This document shows, one piece after another, positions 47,356 through 54,165 of a stretch of DNA of 64,000 bases (the first letter of the stretch is position 1; each line of letters opens with the position of its first letter). The translations under genes were made by a program, and so were the position numbers. The notes under the pieces were generated by a model. It had not been told where the DNA came from and made no database searches. It was given only the letters and a program-made list of their open reading frames with translations. Source of the DNA: Mitsuaria chitosanitabida ATCC BAA-476 = NBRC 102408 (GTDB lineage: Bacteria > Pseudomonadota > Gammaproteobacteria > Burkholderiales > Burkholderiaceae_C); NCBI RefSeq assembly GCF_001598255.1, contig NZ_BCYP01000013.1:62001-126000 (forward strand). Direction: 5' to 3'.

Positions 47356-48173
<818 letters not shown>

Positions 48174-48177
<4 letters not shown>

Positions 48178-48565: not shown

Positions 48566-49759
48566 ATGAAGCTCCCCCACGCATGGGTCGCGGCCGTCGC
48601 GGTCGCCTCCGTCCTCTCGCTCTCCGCCTGCGGCGGAGGTGCCGGCGGCGATGGCTCGATGGCCACCGCCAGCGGCATGGGCACCCTCGGCCTCTCGCTG
48701 ACGGACGCACCGAGCTGCGGCTTCGACCACGTGAACGTGGCCATCCAGAAGATCCGGGTCAACCAGAGCGCCACGGCGGCGGACACCGACGCCGGCTGGA
48801 CCGACCTCACGTTCACCACGCCCAAGCGCGTGGACCTGCTCACGCTGACCAACGGCGTGCTCAGCACGCTCGGCCAGATCCCGCTTCAGGCCGGCCACTA
48901 TTCGCAGTTGAGGCTGGTGCTCGCGGCCAACGACAGCGCGAACCCGCTGCTGAACTCGATCGTTCCGACCGGCGGCAGCGAGGTCGCGCTCGACACGCCC
49001 AGCGCGGTGCAGAGCGGCGTGAAGCTCAACGCCGACATCACCATCGCCGCCAATCAGCTCGCCGACTTCGTGCTCGACTTCGACGCCTGCAAATCGGTGG
49101 TGACGGCGGGCCACTCCGGCAAGTACCTGCTCAAGCCGGTCGTCGCGGTGACGCCCAACTTCATCTCGGGCGTGAGCGGCTTCGTCGACGCGACCCTGGC
49201 CAACGGCGCGACCTCGGTGTCGATCCAGCAGGGCGGGGTGGTCGTGAAGGCGACGGTTCCGGACTCGACAGGCAAGTTCCTGTTGCAACCGGTCGCGCCG
49301 GGCAGCTATGACCTCGTCATCACCGCACCCGGGCGCGCCACCGACGTGATCACCGGATTGACGGTGACCGCGTCGACGGTGACCTTGCTCAACAGCGCCT
49401 CGAGCGCGGTGACGCTGGGGGTCTCGTCCAGCGCCACGGTGGCCGGGACGGTGACGACCGGTGCGACGCCGATCGACGCCGCCGTACGCGCGACGCAGAC
49501 GCTGTCCAACGGCGACAGGATCGAGGTCGCCACCCGCGGTGTCGACGCGGCCACCGGCGCCTACAGCATGGTCTTGCCCGTGGGCGCCACCATGGTCGCG
49601 GCCTACATGGCGCCGCAGGGCTTGCTCGGCTTCGGCGCGGACGCGAGCGCGACGGCGAAGTACGGCCTCGAGGCGAGCTCCGGCGGCAGCACCAAGACAG
49701 CGGGACCGCTGACGCTGAGCGCGGGCGTCACGACCACGACCAACTTCAGCTTCCCCTGA
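48566..49759 (+). CDS. DUF4382 lipoprotein
   Basis: A 397-residue lipoprotein: signal peptide with lipobox LSAC (Cys about residue 22), then the DUF4382 domain (about 38-190; LGLSLTDAPSCGFDHVNVAIQK, VDLLTL, GHYSQLRLVL) and a C-terminal part with beta-rich carboxypeptidase-regulatory-like repeats (KFLLQPVAPGSYDLVITAPGR). It ends in a beta strand. AAGGAG precedes the start. Function unknown; surface-exposed or periplasmic. Confidence 0.82.
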   Translation: MKLPHAWVAAVAVASVLSLSACGGGAGGDGSMATASGMGTLGLSLTDAPSCGFDHVNVAIQKIRVNQSATAADTDAGWTDLTFTTPKRVDLLTLTNGVLSTLGQIPLQAGHYSQLRLVLAANDSANPLLNSIVPTGGSEVALDTPSAVQSGVKLNADITIAANQLADFVLDFDACKSVVTAGHSGKYLLKPVVAVTPNFISGVSGFVDATLANGATSVSIQQGGVVVKATVPDSTGKFLLQPVAPGSYDLVITAPGRATDVITGLTVTASTVTLLNSASSAVTLGVSSSATVAGTVTTGATPIDAAVRATQTLSNGDRIEVATRGVDAATGAYSMVLPVGATMVAAYMAPQGLLGFGADASATAKYGLEASSGGSTKTAGPLTLSAGVTTTTNFSFP

Positions 49760-49829
49760 GCGACGCCCGCGCCAGAGGCGGCCGAGCGTGATGGCGCCGC
49801 ACGCGGCGCGCCCCGCGATCAAGTGTCGG

Positions 49830-50396
49830 TCACGCCCGACCCGGCTTGCGTCGCGCGGTGAAGCCCAGCGCGCCCAGGCCCAGCGCGGCGAGCAGGAACG
49901 ATGCCGGCTCCGGCACGGCGCTGATCGCGAGCTGGACGGAGGCGTTGAGCGGCTGGGGATGGCTCCACAGGTAGCTCAGGCCCTGGTTCAGATTGCCTTG
50001 ATCGCTGATCAGGCTGATCTGCGCCAGACCGGCCTGCAAGGTGTCGAAGTGCAGCGTGCCGAGCAGCAGCGAGGCCTGGCCGTTGTTGGCGACACCCGGG
50101 AAGCTCGATGCGCCGAAGGTGCCGGCGCCCAGCCAGGGGCTGTCGTCGTCCCAGCCCGCGGCCGGCGTGAAACGGCCGAAGGACAGCAGCGCGCTGTCGT
50201 AGCTCAGCCGGAAGCCGAAGGAGAGCAGTTGCTCGTTCGCCGCCAGGCCCGCGAACGGGTCCGTGAGCTGGATCAGCAGGTCCACGCCTTCGCCCGCCTT
50301 CGCCGGGGCCGACGGGGTCAGGGTGACGGTCGAGGCCTGCGCGGCCAGGGACGAGAGCGCCAGCAGCGTGGCGGCCATCAGGGGTTTGAGGCTCAT
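49830..50396 (-). CDS. Cohesin-like PEP-CTERM protein
   Basis: A 188-residue exported protein. A signal peptide (LMAATLLALSSLAAQA) is followed by a domain of about 135 residues with the cohesin-type pattern: TVTLTPSAPAKAGEGVDLLI, a GFRLSYDSALLSFGRF strand pair like the cohesin G-F-x-x-x-Y-D-x-x-x-L, and LLGTLHFDTL. Then comes a PEP-CTERM tag (AVPEPASF, hydrophobic stretch, ARRKPGRA). It begins 8 bp after the stop of a phospholipase C gene whose protein ends in a dockerin. The simplest reading is a surface receptor for that enzyme (inference). The domain could instead be a generic Ig-like fold. Confidence 0.75.
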   Translation of the reverse strand: MSLKPLMAATLLALSSLAAQASTVTLTPSAPAKAGEGVDLLIQLTDPFAGLAANEQLLSFGFRLSYDSALLSFGRFTPAAGWDDDSPWLGAGTFGASSFPGVANNGQASLLLGTLHFDTLQAGLAQISLISDQGNLNQGLSYLWSHPQPLNASVQLAISAVPEPASFLLAALGLGALGFTARRKPGRA

Positions 50397-50404
50397 GTCG
50401 GTTC

Positions 50405-53026
50405 TCACAGGGTGCTGAAGAGCTGGTACCAGACGCGGTAGTCCGCCTGGGTGATGCACTTGTCGCCGTCCATGTCGGCTAGCGGCTCGAAGCGCGCGTC
50501 GCCGGAGCAGCTGCCGATCGCGTTGCGCAGCGTGTCGCGGTCCGCCGCGGTGATCGCGCCGTCGCCATTCACGTCGCCGTTCTTGCGAATGCGGACGGAC
50601 AGGCGCGGCGCGGCCTCGCCGTAGCCGTCGTTCAGGAACAGGCCCAGGAAGTAGTCGCCCTCCGGCTGACCCGCCAGCGAGAACACCTGCGATCCCGCCG
50701 GGCTCGCGACGTAGTTCCATTTGAGCGAGCCCGGACCGCCGGGCGTCATGCCGACGCGGTACAGGCCGATCCAGTTCGTCGTGCCGGACGGCAGGCCGGT
50801 CCAGCTCAGCGACACACCGCCACCGAGGCGGACGCGGTCGACGTCGGCCTTGAAGCTGGCTGTCGGCTGCGTCGGCGGCAGCACCGGCGGCGCGTTCCAG
50901 GTCACCTGGCCCAGGCCGTTGAGCACCGGGTCGGTAAAGTCGAGGCCCGCGCCTTCGACATGGCCTGCCAGGCGGCGCCAGAAGGCGCTGTCGCCGTCGA
51001 CGGTGACGACCAGGTCGTACCAGCCGTAGCTCGCGGTCACCGCGCGCACGTGATCGCGGCTCGAGCCCGCCGGGACGTCGATGGTGACCACCGTCCGGTC
51101 GCCGTAGGCGTTGTCGGTGACACGGAAGCGCATGGGCTGCGTGCTGGCGTTGCGCAGCGTCAGCGTGAGGCTGGCGCTGGCGGGCTGTTCCTTCAGCGAG
51201 GCGGCGGCCAGACGACCGATGCCGTCGAAGCTCATGCGGAACTCGCGCAAGAAGCCGTTGTCGCCCTGGACCGCCAGCTGCATCGCGGCGCCGGACCAGT
51301 TCCAGACTTCCTGATCGATGCGCTTGCCCGGCTCCACCGTGTAGTGCCACGGGCCGTCGGTGCGCAGCGTCGAGTAGACGATGTAGGCGGCCGTCGTCGA
51401 TCCCTCGTTGCCGAAGCTCAGCGCGAACTGGCGCGCGTTCGTGGCGGCGATGCCGTCCACGGTCGAGCGGTAGGGCAGAGGCGCGGCCCGGCGCGGCACG
51501 CCGGTGGCGGCCTTCTCCTGGCGCGGCAGGCTCTGCACCGTCGGCGGCAGGGCGTCCTTGGAGCCCCAGCCCTTGAAGTACACCGCGCTGGTCGGCACGC
51601 CGGACGGGAAGGCGGCATCGCCGGACTTGAAGTCGAAGGCGCTGGTCATGTCGCCGCAGACGGCGCGGCGCCACGGCGAGATGCCGTTGCACTGCACGCT
51701 GGCGCGCGGGTAGCCCAGGCTCACCAGCCACTCCTCGGTGAAGCGGATCAGCGAGGTGTGGTCGAACAGTTGCGAGCAGACGCGGCCGCCCTTGCTCCAG
51801 GGCGAGATCACCATCGTCGGCACGCGCGGGCCCAGGCCGATGGGTTGACCGCCGGCGATCTCGCCTTGCGTCGCGTTGGCCAGGGTCGTGCGGCCGCGGT
51901 CCGCACTCAGCGGCGCCATGACCGAGGGCATGTGGTCGAAGAAGCCGTCGTTCTCGTCGTAGGTCAGGATCAGCGCGGTCTTGGACCAGACCTCGGGCGA
52001 CGCCACCAGCGCCTGCAGCAGGCGCGCGGTGAAGTTCTCGCCGGCGTTGGGCGTGGCGTCGGGGTGCTCGCAGTACTCGGACGGGGCGCAGATGTAGGAC
52101 ACGCGCGGCAGCTGTCCGCCGCGCACGTCGGCGGCGAACTGGTCGATCAGCCACTGGCCCGTCGTGCCCGGCGCGTTGGCCTGCGTCGATCCCGCCGCCA
52201 GCGCGCGACCGCGGCGGTACAGGGAGGAGGCGGGGGTCAGCTTCTGGCCGTTGGCGTCGACGCGGAAGTTCTTGAAGTACTGGAGGTAGTTGTCGCCGTA
52301 GTTGTCCCACTCCTGGTAGACCTTCCAGCTCACGCCGGCCGACTCCAGGACCTCGGCGTAGGTGGGCCACTCGTTGCCCTTGCCGGCCGGGTTGTCATTG
52401 GCGATGTCGCCGTTGTAGACCCCGTTGGTGACGTTGTAGAGCTTGGCGTCGGCGATGCCCGTCATCACGCCGTTGCTGTTGCCGCTCAACGCGTAGAAGC
52501 GGTTGGGATCGGTGGGGCCGAAGATCGAGCAGTGGTACGCGTCGCAGACGGTGAACGCGTCGGCGAGGGCGTAATAGAAGGGCAGGTCGGTGCGGTCGAA
52601 GTAGCCCATCGAGCGGGCGGACTTCTTCGGGACCCAGACGTTCCAGTCCTTCCAGGCGGTCTCGGTGCCCTTCCAGCTGTGGTCCAGGCCGACGCGCAGC
52701 GCGTTGGTGTTGCGCGTGTCGAAGTGGTAAGGCAGGACTTGCGAGCCCAGCGCCGTGCCCGGCTGCATCCACACCGGCTGACCGCTGGGCAGCGCGATCG
52801 GGCGCGGATCGCTGTAGCCGCGCACGCCGGACAGCGTGCCGAAATAGTGGTCGAAGCTGCGGTTCTCCTGCATCAGGATGACCACGTGCTCGATGTCCGC
52901 CAGCGTGCCGGTGGCGTTGTTGGCCGGGGTGGCGAGCGCGCGCCGGAGGGTCTGCGCGAAGGCGTGGCTGCTGGCCATGCCGGCGACGGCGGCGGTCAGG
53001 AAAGTCCGACGAGATGTCGTGCTCAT
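50405..53026 (-). CDS. Tat-exported phospholipase C with C-terminal dockerin
   Basis: An 873-residue enzyme. Twin-arginine signal (SRRTFLTAAVAG), then the phosphoesterase domain of bacterial non-haemolytic phospholipase C: HVVILMQENRSFDHYFGTL with catalytic residues, FGPTDPNRFYALSGN, LILTYDENDGFFDHM, and VPTMVISPWSKGG. C-terminal beta domains (about 530-790) follow, as in PLCs. The last 60 residues form a dockerin-type repeat: loop GDVNGDGAITAAD and loop DMDGDKCITQAD, two F-hand calcium sites. A dockerin on a phospholipase C is unusual. The gene is upstream of a cohesin-like PEP-CTERM gene with only 8 bp between. Confidence 0.9.
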   Translation of the reverse strand: MSTTSRRTFLTAAVAGMASSHAFAQTLRRALATPANNATGTLADIEHVVILMQENRSFDHYFGTLSGVRGYSDPRPIALPSGQPVWMQPGTALGSQVLPYHFDTRNTNALRVGLDHSWKGTETAWKDWNVWVPKKSARSMGYFDRTDLPFYYALADAFTVCDAYHCSIFGPTDPNRFYALSGNSNGVMTGIADAKLYNVTNGVYNGDIANDNPAGKGNEWPTYAEVLESAGVSWKVYQEWDNYGDNYLQYFKNFRVDANGQKLTPASSLYRRGRALAAGSTQANAPGTTGQWLIDQFAADVRGGQLPRVSYICAPSEYCEHPDATPNAGENFTARLLQALVASPEVWSKTALILTYDENDGFFDHMPSVMAPLSADRGRTTLANATQGEIAGGQPIGLGPRVPTMVISPWSKGGRVCSQLFDHTSLIRFTEEWLVSLGYPRASVQCNGISPWRRAVCGDMTSAFDFKSGDAAFPSGVPTSAVYFKGWGSKDALPPTVQSLPRQEKAATGVPRRAAPLPYRSTVDGIAATNARQFALSFGNEGSTTAAYIVYSTLRTDGPWHYTVEPGKRIDQEVWNWSGAAMQLAVQGDNGFLREFRMSFDGIGRLAAASLKEQPASASLTLTLRNASTQPMRFRVTDNAYGDRTVVTIDVPAGSSRDHVRAVTASYGWYDLVVTVDGDSAFWRRLAGHVEGAGLDFTDPVLNGLGQVTWNAPPVLPPTQPTASFKADVDRVRLGGGVSLSWTGLPSGTTNWIGLYRVGMTPGGPGSLKWNYVASPAGSQVFSLAGQPEGDYFLGLFLNDGYGEAAPRLSVRIRKNGDVNGDGAITAADRDTLRNAIGSCSGDARFEPLADMDGDKCITQADYRVWYQLFSTL

Positions 53027-53253
53027 GAAGCTTCACCTGGGGAGGTCGTGAAGCGCGTGATTTTTTTGGCGCAGGAAGTCAGCGCCGTGAAGGATCGATG
53101 TCGAGCGGTAACGCTTCGTTGGCGGCGTGCGATTGGGAGACGGCGGTCTCCGGCCCCTTCAGGCCCAGGCCCCGCGGTCGGGTGAGCCGCAGCGAGGGCG
53201 CAGCGCCGGGCATAGGGTGTCGGACGCCGGTCCGAGGCGCCCCGGGCCCAGGG

Positions 53254-54165
53254 TCAGGACTTGCGCAGGAAGGCGTCGATCTCGCGTGCGATGAGCTGGG
53301 GCTGCTCGTGCACGATCCAATGCGTGGCGCCGGGGACCTTCAGGACCTCGAGGTCCGGCACGTAGTCCTCCAGGCCGTCGAGCAGCCCCGGCAGCAGGGC
53401 GGTGTCGTCCAGCGCCCAGAACACCAGCGTCGGCACGTCCACCGTGAGGCGCTCGCGCGGGAGCACGGGGATGACGTCGACGGTCTGGCCCGGCAGCGGC
53501 GGCTTGAGCGGCGTGACGCGGTAGAGGTTGCAGGCGCCGGTGAGCCCCTGGTCCCAGACCTCGCGATAGCGCTGCTTGAGGTCCTCGGTGAGCCAGCCGA
53601 AGCCGTCCGCGCCGGCCTTCATGCGGGTGAAGAAGGGCCACAGGCGCTGGTAGTCGTCGGCGGCCAGCAGCGCCTCGGCATCGGGCCGGGCGAGGAAGTT
53701 CATGTAGGCGCTGGCCTCGCGCTGGACCTCGCTCTCGCGCAGCTCCCGCGACAGCGTGCCCGCGTGCGGCGAGTTGAGGATCACCAGGCGGCCGGTCTGC
53801 GCCGGGAAGGCGTTCGCGAAGCCCCAGGCGAAGGCGCCGCCCCAGTCGTGCGCCACCAGCGCGGCCATGCGGCTGTCGGCCCGCTCGGTGGCGACGAGCT
53901 GCTGGATGTCCTGCACCAGCAGCTGAGGCTTGTAGGCAGCGACCTCGGTCGGGGCGCTGGACCGCTCGAAGCCGCGCAGGTTGGGCGCGACGCAGCGGTA
54001 GCCGCCATGCGCGGGGTCGGCGAAGTAGGTGAGGAGCTCGTCCCAGATGAAGGCGGCTTCGGGGAAGCCGTGGAGGAACACGATCAGCGGCCGCCCCGGC
54101 TCGCCGGCGGCGCGGCAGCTCAGGGTGATGCCGTTGGGCAGCGGGCGCTGGAAGGTCTCGATCAT
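53254..54165 (-). CDS. Alpha/beta hydrolase, epoxide hydrolase-like
   Basis: A 303-residue cytoplasmic hydrolase. Oxyanion segment FLHGFPEAAFIWDE (HGFP), nucleophile Asp in AHDWGGAF, a cap domain, and GATHWIVHEQP with the catalytic His, and an acidic VFWALDDTAL. An Asp nucleophile in H-D-W-G-G plus HGFP is the epoxide hydrolase/dehalogenase pattern. The start at 54165 is preceded by no strong site, but the upstream extension is not protein-like. It is followed on the same strand by the related hydrolase at 54353, transcribed toward it. Confidence 0.82.
   Translation of the reverse strand: MIETFQRPLPNGITLSCRAAGEPGRPLIVFLHGFPEAAFIWDELLTYFADPAHGGYRCVAPNLRGFERSSAPTEVAAYKPQLLVQDIQQLVATERADSRMAALVAHDWGGAFAWGFANAFPAQTGRLVILNSPHAGTLSRELRESEVQREASAYMNFLARPDAEALLAADDYQRLWPFFTRMKAGADGFGWLTEDLKQRYREVWDQGLTGACNLYRVTPLKPPLPGQTVDVIPVLPRERLTVDVPTLVFWALDDTALLPGLLDGLEDYVPDLEVLKVPGATHWIVHEQPQLIAREIDAFLRKS

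Follow-up and report, generated by a model that had tools for sequence, protein, structure and literature searches.

A candidate cohesin–dockerin cassette pairing a phospholipase C with a PEP-CTERM protein in Mitsuaria chitosanitabida

In cellulosomes, cohesin–dockerin pairs (types I-III) join a cohesin fold to a double-loop dockerin at the enzyme C-terminus, with multi-cohesin scaffoldins and several dockerin-bearing enzymes. A type I dockerin contains two 12-residue calcium loops, with Asp or Asn at positions 1, 3 and 5 and Asp at position 12, and a helix after each loop. Cohesin and dockerin modules are reportedly not confined to cellulosomes but spread across all domains of life, and a cohesin–dockerin complex is reported for the glycosidases of Clostridium perfringens, which are non-cellulosomal hydrolases. 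The roles of non-cellulosomal modules are called unknown in PMC5244752, which cites Peer 2009, and PMC2386152 deferred to future studies the question of whether Saccharophagus dockerins bind the cohesin-like modules of that organism.

The locus described here lies in a window of 64,000 nucleotides, which is the whole stretch of DNA that was analysed. It shares with cellulosomal systems the (predicted) cohesin fold and the double-loop dockerin at the enzyme C-terminus, but it has a single cohesin per receptor and no scaffoldin repeats, its cargo is not cellulases, its receptor carries an exosortase tag, and the partner genes adjoin in pairs. With one Pfam dockerin, no Pfam cohesin and no relative of the window cohesin besides itself found in the genome, and with a single cohesin domain in the receptor, it does not have the make-up of a cellulosome. 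Unlike for other modules outside cellulosomes, a partner, a gene arrangement and an anchoring route can be named here. The C. perfringens cohesin modules (2jh2, 2vo8, 2w1n) are among the best structural matches, but there the cohesin is part of an enzyme, whereas here a small, sorted Gram-negative protein carries it. As in the PEP-CTERM/exosortase sorting outlined in PMC1569441, a tag and exosortases are present; different from that outline, the tagged protein probably serves a partner enzyme as its receptor. The family NF041540 (GC-type dockerin domain-anchored protein) shares the idea of a dockerin anchoring a protein, but the window enzyme gives no match to it at E<=1.

The first gene of the pair (50405..53026, minus strand) encodes an 873-aa phosphocholine-specific phospholipase C (PLC) with a C-terminal dockerin, matched by PF04185, PF05506, PF00404 and the equivalog TIGR03396 (732 bits against a cut-off of 580), the last over the whole catalytic part. 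Its twin-arginine (Tat-like) signal region, MSTTSRRTFLTAAVAGMASS (52955..53026, minus strand, end approximate), was read by eye against the Tat consensus. A beta-domain (about residues 724-815; 50582..50857, minus strand) links the PLC core to the dockerin; it has AF2 strands of good confidence and, in alignment A7, is common to PLC and phosphatase-type relatives. The type I dockerin (50408..50578, minus strand; alignments A2 and A7) holds both 12-residue loops (DVNGDGAITAAD and DMDGDKCITQAD), and its cysteines C840 and C857 form a conserved pair. Dockerin_1 (PF00404) matches residues 817-863 with 26.3 bits against a cut-off of 22.9, and in the genome-wide search (31.6 bits) this PLC was the sole match in the genome. 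In the AF2 model of beta-domain plus dockerin, the beta strands are confident and the dockerin part is poor, its helices at 111-121 and 144-155 falling in blocks with a mean pLDDT of 43-56. An 8-bp gap (50397..50404, minus strand) separates this gene from the downstream PEP-CTERM gene (49830..50396, minus strand), and a promoter/terminator scan gave no result, with no terminator-like site in 49600-53400. The original prediction of a dockerin-ended PLC adjoining an exported PEP-CTERM protein is confirmed, including the ORFs, strand, coordinates and gap, the identity of the large protein as a PLC, its two complete F-hand loops, and the Dockerin_1 match that had been proposed as a check.

The downstream product, of 188 aa, starts with a Sec-type signal peptide, MSLKPLMAATLLALSSLAAQA (approximately 50334..50396, minus strand, by-eye reading), and ends in the PEP-CTERM exosortase sorting tag that had been predicted for it (49845..49919, minus strand; PF07589 at residues 160-184, 31.5 bits against a cut-off of 20.7); the genome, with two exosortases, thus holds both motif and exosortase. 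The cohesin-type strand pattern had been a guess for this protein. The proposed search with Pfam Cohesin (PF00963) gave no match, and Pfam and NCBIfam scans of the protein yielded the tag only, but the predicted fold agrees with the guess: the AF2 model of the mature domain (49917..50336, minus strand; 12-sequence input) is a nine-stranded sandwich (pLDDT 95.5, pTM 0.89), and its best 36 PDB chains in Foldseek are all cohesins or cohesin-containing. The top match is 2vo8 (TM 0.72/0.74), most others lying at 0.5-0.6 with 9-17% identity. A first profile comparison contained the signal peptide and tag and was hence repeated with trimmed domains; the trimmed profile of the window-type domain then matched 12 neighbouring-type cohesins at 96.1% (E 3.3e-9), against 0.1-0.3% for two other PEP-CTERM families that served as controls. 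A common signal peptide and tag was thereby rejected as the source of the cohesin likeness. A PDB sequence search with a profile of 6 window-type cohesins found nothing, and a profile built from 32 partner proteins reached PDB cohesins (best 2.7e-14). On the structural model, the 188-aa protein is predicted to have a cohesin fold.

It is proposed, with fair confidence, that the two genes form a minimal one-enzyme/one-receptor cohesin–dockerin cassette in which a secreted enzyme is tethered by a protein that an exosortase sorts. The calcium loading, the binding, the place on the surface, the route of secretion and the benefit are inferred as follows. The PLC would fold inside the cell, exit by Tat, and probably cross the outer membrane via a type II secretion system, secretins of which are present in the genome. 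The receptor would exit by Sec, and an exosortase would handle its PEP-CTERM tag, leading to placement in the exopolysaccharide matrix or on the surface of the cell. Once loaded with calcium, the dockerin of the PLC may then plug into the cohesin domain of the receptor, so that the PLC would be kept at the cell or matrix and not diffuse away.

In the named genomes, a dockerin-ended gene stands directly upstream of a cohesin-like gene in all 11 true loci (12 in the locus search, minus L144, left out as false), their dockerins being read from the printed protein tails since the automatic loop counter was too strict. The same arrangement is present in Eleftheria terrae, where RefSeq names the receptor copy as a PEP-CTERM protein only. 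The enzyme itself is exchanged: L133, L134, L136, L137, L143 and L154 encode PLCs by Pfam, and in five of the 11 loci, L131 (= L138) and L139-L142, the enzyme is phosphatase-type by Pfam (purple-acid-phosphatase/Metallophos proteins). Despite these different enzymes, the beta-domain, dockerin and cohesin are common to both sets of loci. Among 10 related enzymes scanned, Dockerin_1 was above the cut-off in two, below it in two and absent at E<=0.001 in six; because it misses most of them, the dockerins of the related enzymes rest on alignment A7. The fold and the linkage were two points on which the docking interpretation could have failed, through a receptor of another fold or through genes unlinked in relatives; both came out in its favour, and the interpretation is supported.

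An alternative is that the two genes adjoin through co-regulation (e.g., under phosphate limitation), PLC and PEP-CTERM protein taking part in one response with no contact between them. Such an arrangement would fit the finding that a non-cohesin PEP-CTERM gene lies within 2.5 kb of a dockerin-less PLC copy in 28 of 60 stretches around other members of the PLC family, including L185 in the same genome. These 60 stretches represent part of the copies listed; the sole regex matches in L157, L158, L180 and L198 were judged noise and not counted, and the PLC frame motif found none in L167, L168, L180, L187, L194 and L203. Since PEP-CTERM genes accompany so many dockerin-less PLCs, PLC/PEP-CTERM adjacency alone proves little, and the weight of the case is on the cohesin/dockerin match. 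A cohesin was not detected by HMM in any of the 60 stretches, which rejects the idea that such a neighbour comes with every PLC in the family, nor did tblastn detect a window-type dockerin in them (best E 0.20), in contrast to the window's own TIGR03396 protein. Against co-regulation, the cohesin HMM is silent around dockerin-less PLCs, yet quite different enzymes that do have a dockerin have cohesin-like neighbours. Furthermore, L213 and L214 fall inside the dockerin-PLC clade and retain the beta-domain but lack both the dockerin and a nearby cohesin, a joint absence that also argues against it (the clade grouping left out L135 and L154, where the motif was missed, and L137 was not entered). 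Dockerin and cohesin types also co-vary, as described below, and co-regulation without contact is considered unlikely, although it is the strongest of the alternatives.

Pairs of this kind extend further than the original prediction had it, to many unrelated enzymes. A survey of 299 genomes of the family gave 70 PF00404 rows, or 68 loci after removal of the window and of another row for the same locus; 27 of these, in which the module is not C-terminal, were set aside by eye (long frames with an internal module, 140-860-aa frames with the module inside common sequence, and L089, where it is N-terminal). Among the remaining 41 C-terminal dockerin genes, 31 are accompanied within the fetched +-5 kb by a tagged, cohesin-like gene, directly adjacent in 23 cases (18 downstream, 5 upstream) and with one gene between in 8; for the other 10, two of them at contig ends, no cohesin-like neighbour was found in the fetched +-5 kb. 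Pfam Cohesin matches 20 of the 31 partners at E<=0.01, leaving 11 short of it, and 22 at E<=1, and PEP-CTERM is found in 30, compared with about 0.9% of genes at large; the survey HMM had been built with 27 of these partners, which therefore match it by construction. The paired dockerin genes span about a dozen enzyme types. A single duplicated locus as the source of the linkage was rejected after a recount by enzyme cluster, in which 12 of 18 clusters were paired with the window's cluster left out (L127 and L082 are still separate in the binomial counts of 9 and 12 of 18). Given this linkage across the family and the conservation of the pair in relatives, the pairing is not due to chance. Over 12 enzyme clusters, similarity between dockerins goes with similarity between cohesins (Pearson 0.82, permutation p 5e-5), although co-inherited neighbours can co-vary without binding; for this clustering L127 was joined to L082 by hand, and the window PLC and phosphatase clusters merge at a looser threshold, probably via common beta-domain residues.

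The dockerin might instead bind some other cohesin, with the adjacent receptor mainly binding matrix or other cargo and not being the chief partner. The description of non-cellulosomal cohesin roles as unknown, in PMC5244752, leaves room for such a role, but the genome contains neither a Pfam cohesin nor a second relative of the window cohesin (one match, itself), a search in which a diverged one could be missed; this second alternative is judged improbable. A reading of the dockerin-like end as an Efh-type module or a stabiliser that binds calcium, with no cohesin partner, is very improbable, since the low AF2 confidence of the dockerin part and the 10 of 41 C-terminal dockerins with no cohesin-like neighbour found stand against a Pfam dockerin match above the cut-off and linkage to a cohesin-fold gene in all 11 named loci.

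If the tethering cassette is real, it would give some PEP-CTERM proteins a cargo-holding role, supply surface display in Gram-negatives with binding pairs that are already made, and reveal a subfamily of cohesins overlooked by the Pfam model. As the genome names the partner, the question of role becomes a two-protein test.

More broadly, and with confidence somewhat above even, the Burkholderiales, together with some few relatives of the same class, may use plug-in surface display, in which private pairs of several matched classes let an exosortase-sorted cohesin hold the dockerin enzyme encoded alongside. The docking pair would move as one piece from enzyme to enzyme, with different sorting tags (PEP, VPAP-like, VPLPA-like). 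The pattern is thin beyond the family, with a direct cassette at 2 of 29 Pfam cohesin rows (369 class genomes); this thinness and the failure of Dockerin_1 in most window-type relatives lower the confidence both in the cassette reading and in this broader one. L150, a relative outside the family, just reaches the NF041540 cut-off (29.5 against 29), and an exosortase was found in 33 of the 34 other genomes searched.

Two adjacent minus-strand open reading frames encode a phosphocholine-specific phospholipase C (PLC) with a C-terminal dockerin (50405-53026, 873 aa) and, after a gap of 8 bp, a PEP-CTERM protein with a predicted cohesin fold (49830-50396, 188 aa). Both genes proved to be as described in the original prediction: the larger protein exceeds the cut-off of the phosphocholine-specific PLC model (732 vs. 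580 bits) and matches PF04185 and PF05506, and its residues 817-863 match Dockerin_1 above cut-off (26.3 vs. 22.9 bits), a match unique in the genome. The 188-aa protein scores 31.5 bits for its PEP-CTERM tag, over a cut-off of 20.7, and, as judged by eye, has a signal peptide. The genome holds 23 PEP-CTERM matches, two exosortases and two type II secretins exceeding cut-off. The convergent downstream neighbour (48566-49759) is DUF4382 lipoprotein-like, and a carboxypeptidase-regulatory-like stretch in it scores under the cut-off for that model; a membrane-protein-like ORF (47356-48177) shows a long Ala/Thr alternating stretch, which in other frames becomes Arg/Pro-rich low complexity.

The predicted cohesin identity of the 188-aa protein was borne out by predicted fold and by profile, but not by Pfam Cohesin, which gave no match. 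A structure model based on 12 sequences (the window protein and 11 relatives) has nine strands (pLDDT 95.5, pTM 0.89), and the best 36 PDB chains in its ranking are cohesin modules or cohesin-containing scaffoldin chains, the first non-cohesin being YcnI at rank 37. By TM-score, the model comes nearest to 2vo8, a module from Clostridium perfringens (0.72/0.74), and the other cohesin matches lie mostly at TM 0.5-0.6 with 9-17% identity. After removal of signal peptide and tag, the window-type profile matched one built from 12 neighbouring-type cohesins (96.1%, E 3.3e-9), vs. 0.1-0.3% for two unrelated families of PEP-CTERM proteins encoded next to other PLCs. A profile of six window-type proteins alone found no cohesin in the PDB; one of 32 paired proteins did (best E 2.7e-14). 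By its predicted fold, the partner protein is a cohesin.

Conservation of the gene pair in relatives was confirmed. A pattern-based scan of 84,980 species (one genome each) returned 12 loci, 11 of them real: a Rubrivivax MAG, Roseateles chitinivorans, R. noduli, R. aquatilis, a Rhodoferax MAG, Paucibacter sp., Methyloversatilis thermotolerans, Burkholderiales bacterium C2, Parazoarcus communis, a Methyloversatilis discipulorum MAG and Inhella proteolytica. At all 11, the directly upstream same-strand gene ends in a dockerin-like tail, read by eye; Eleftheria terrae is an additional case, for which RefSeq names only a phospholipase C and a PEP-CTERM protein. The scan and family sets of loci overlap (L135=L095, L138=L131, L140=L132, L143=L129). 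The upstream enzyme is a PLC by Pfam at L133, L134, L136, L137, L143 and L154, and the L135 enzyme gives a 91% alignment to the window PLC; at L138 and L139-L142, Pfam places it in purple acid phosphatase/Metallophos. The window-type beta-domain, dockerin and cohesin are common to both kinds, so the docking pair can stay while the enzyme changes. Pfam Dockerin_1 is a poor witness for window-type dockerins (in ten related enzymes: two over cut-off, two under, six absent at E<=0.001), and since it mostly fails there, these dockerins rest on an alignment of beta-domain and dockerin. The dockerin part has 11 invariant columns in the second repeat (133-154) and six in the first (101-122). Cys 840 and Cys 857 are conserved across the alignment and missing together in L137, which suggests a disulfide between them.

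Among 299 Burkholderiaceae_C genomes, Dockerin_1 occurs in 54 (70 rows), and in 41 of the 68 loci fetched it lies at the C-terminus. A cohesin-like tagged gene was present within the fetched +-5 kb at 31 of these 41 loci, directly downstream in 18, directly upstream in five and one gene away in eight (three same-strand, five divergent); at the other ten, two of them at contig ends, no partner was found in that range. As 27 of the 31 partners were built into the cohesin HMM, they match it by construction; the remaining four (L075, L078, L084, L101) were picked up at E 1.3e-9 to 2e-6. Independently of this HMM, Pfam Cohesin matched 20/31 at E<=0.01 and 22/31 at E<=1, and PEP-CTERM matched 30/31. 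Conversely, of 49 Pfam cohesin rows in these genomes, 17 have a dockerin row <=4 kb away on their contig and two more share a frame with a dockerin, the others being mostly in long frames with no dockerin nearby. Paired enzymes include a C25 peptidase, a reprolysin-like metallopeptidase, GH10, an M20 peptidase, a metallo-beta-lactamase fold, a metallophosphoesterase, a glucose/sorbosone dehydrogenase and an IgGFc-binding-domain protein; clusters L068, L075 and L101 gave no catalytic Pfam match. The pairing is a recurrent arrangement independent of the enzyme. At L075, L078 and L084, three genes stand in a row, the dockerin gene last, and the cohesin-PEP segment runs ~100 residues beyond the tag; at L089 (G183:C1:2868587-2878739), the gene for a cohesin-like PEP-CTERM protein comes before one whose product has a dockerin-like module near its N-terminus.

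PLCs without a dockerin served as control. TIGR03396 matched in 62 of the 299 genomes, and in 60 stretches around PLC copies without Pfam dockerin (a subset of such copies), the cohesin HMM gave no match at E<=10. A non-cohesin PEP-CTERM gene lies <=2.5 kb away in 28 of the 60 (L166, L170, L172-L175, L178, L179, L181-L185, L188-L190, L192, L196, L197, L200-L202, L205-L210). Two recurrent kinds of such neighbour, not cohesin-like, end in '..MDDFTFTxAVPEP..' and '..DNDGYADNLxF..VPEP..'. The window genome's other PLC copy (L185, G000:C42:6952-14078) lacks a dockerin and adjoins a PEP-CTERM gene, and a third match (G000:C22:88768-90186) covers model positions 2-497 only, just below cut-off. In a midpoint-rooted PLC tree, for which the program warned of long branches, L213 and L214 (one genus) fall inside the dockerin-PLC clade (eight rows, support 100/100), beside L129 (99/94). 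Both keep the beta-domain and stop before the dockerin, and neither cohesin nor dockerin was found in their fetched stretches; a single loss of both together would explain this most simply.

In 23 pair-bearing genomes, PEP-CTERM matches add up to 1,175 over about 129.2 Mb; counting one gene per kb, they make up ~0.9% of genes. At this base rate, the chance of 18/41 directly downstream is about 3e-26; with the window's enzyme cluster left out, it is about 2e-14 for 9/18 clusters directly downstream and about 2e-9 for 12/18 within 10 kb, assuming random placement and independent clusters, with partners taken by regex and the base rate by Pfam. Across 12 enzyme clusters, the mean similarity of the dockerins is correlated with that of the cohesins (Pearson 0.82, permutation p 5e-5; Spearman 0.55, p 1.5e-4), as it is across the 11 other than the window's (Pearson 0.83, p 1e-4). 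The two modules travel and diverge together, which is not by itself proof of binding. It is natural to infer that the PLC dockerin binds its partner and tethers the enzyme. Dockerin anchoring is not new as an idea, because NCBIfam already has a GC-type dockerin 'domain-anchored protein' model that likewise treats the dockerin as an anchor. Full-text searches of an open-access library, in which most subscription papers are absent, gave no report of PEP-CTERM cohesins paired with dockerins; the one paper there to mention both exosortase and dockerin is on archaea. A passage of PMC5244752 states cohesin/dockerin function beyond the cellulosome as not known, and one of PMC2386152 leaves dockerin binding in Saccharophagus open.

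Across 369 gammaproteobacterial genomes, Pfam cohesin occurs in 21 and dockerin in 42. Among the 29 cohesin rows are two, in G582 and G614, where the cohesin gene immediately follows a dockerin gene and its product ends in a VPLPA-like tag (20.6 and 16.7, under the NCBIfam cut-off of 25.35); in a few others, the cohesin is close to a dockerin or shares its frame in other arrangements. Exosortase is present in 33 of 34 genomes searched, including four without the window-type pair (G127, G218, G028, G154), the exception being G582 (85% complete). Back in the 299 genomes of the family, some Pfam cohesins lie in frames of ~800-1,060 residues and have no dockerin row in their vicinity (e.g., G239:C38, G145:C11, G028:C95), a different use of the cohesin. 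Dockerin_1 matches inside the common sequence '..ADGIGPWKRYI..DVNGDGKINDADA..' (L105, L106, L112, L114, L117, L118, L121, L122, L125, L126, L128) look like a calcium-loop insertion in an enzyme rather than a docking module. Dockerin-like modules also occur within giant frames of about 7,500-14,800 residues (L065, L073, L077, L083, L085, L088, L092), and a single 7,160-residue frame (G069:C176) has both dockerin and cohesin matches.
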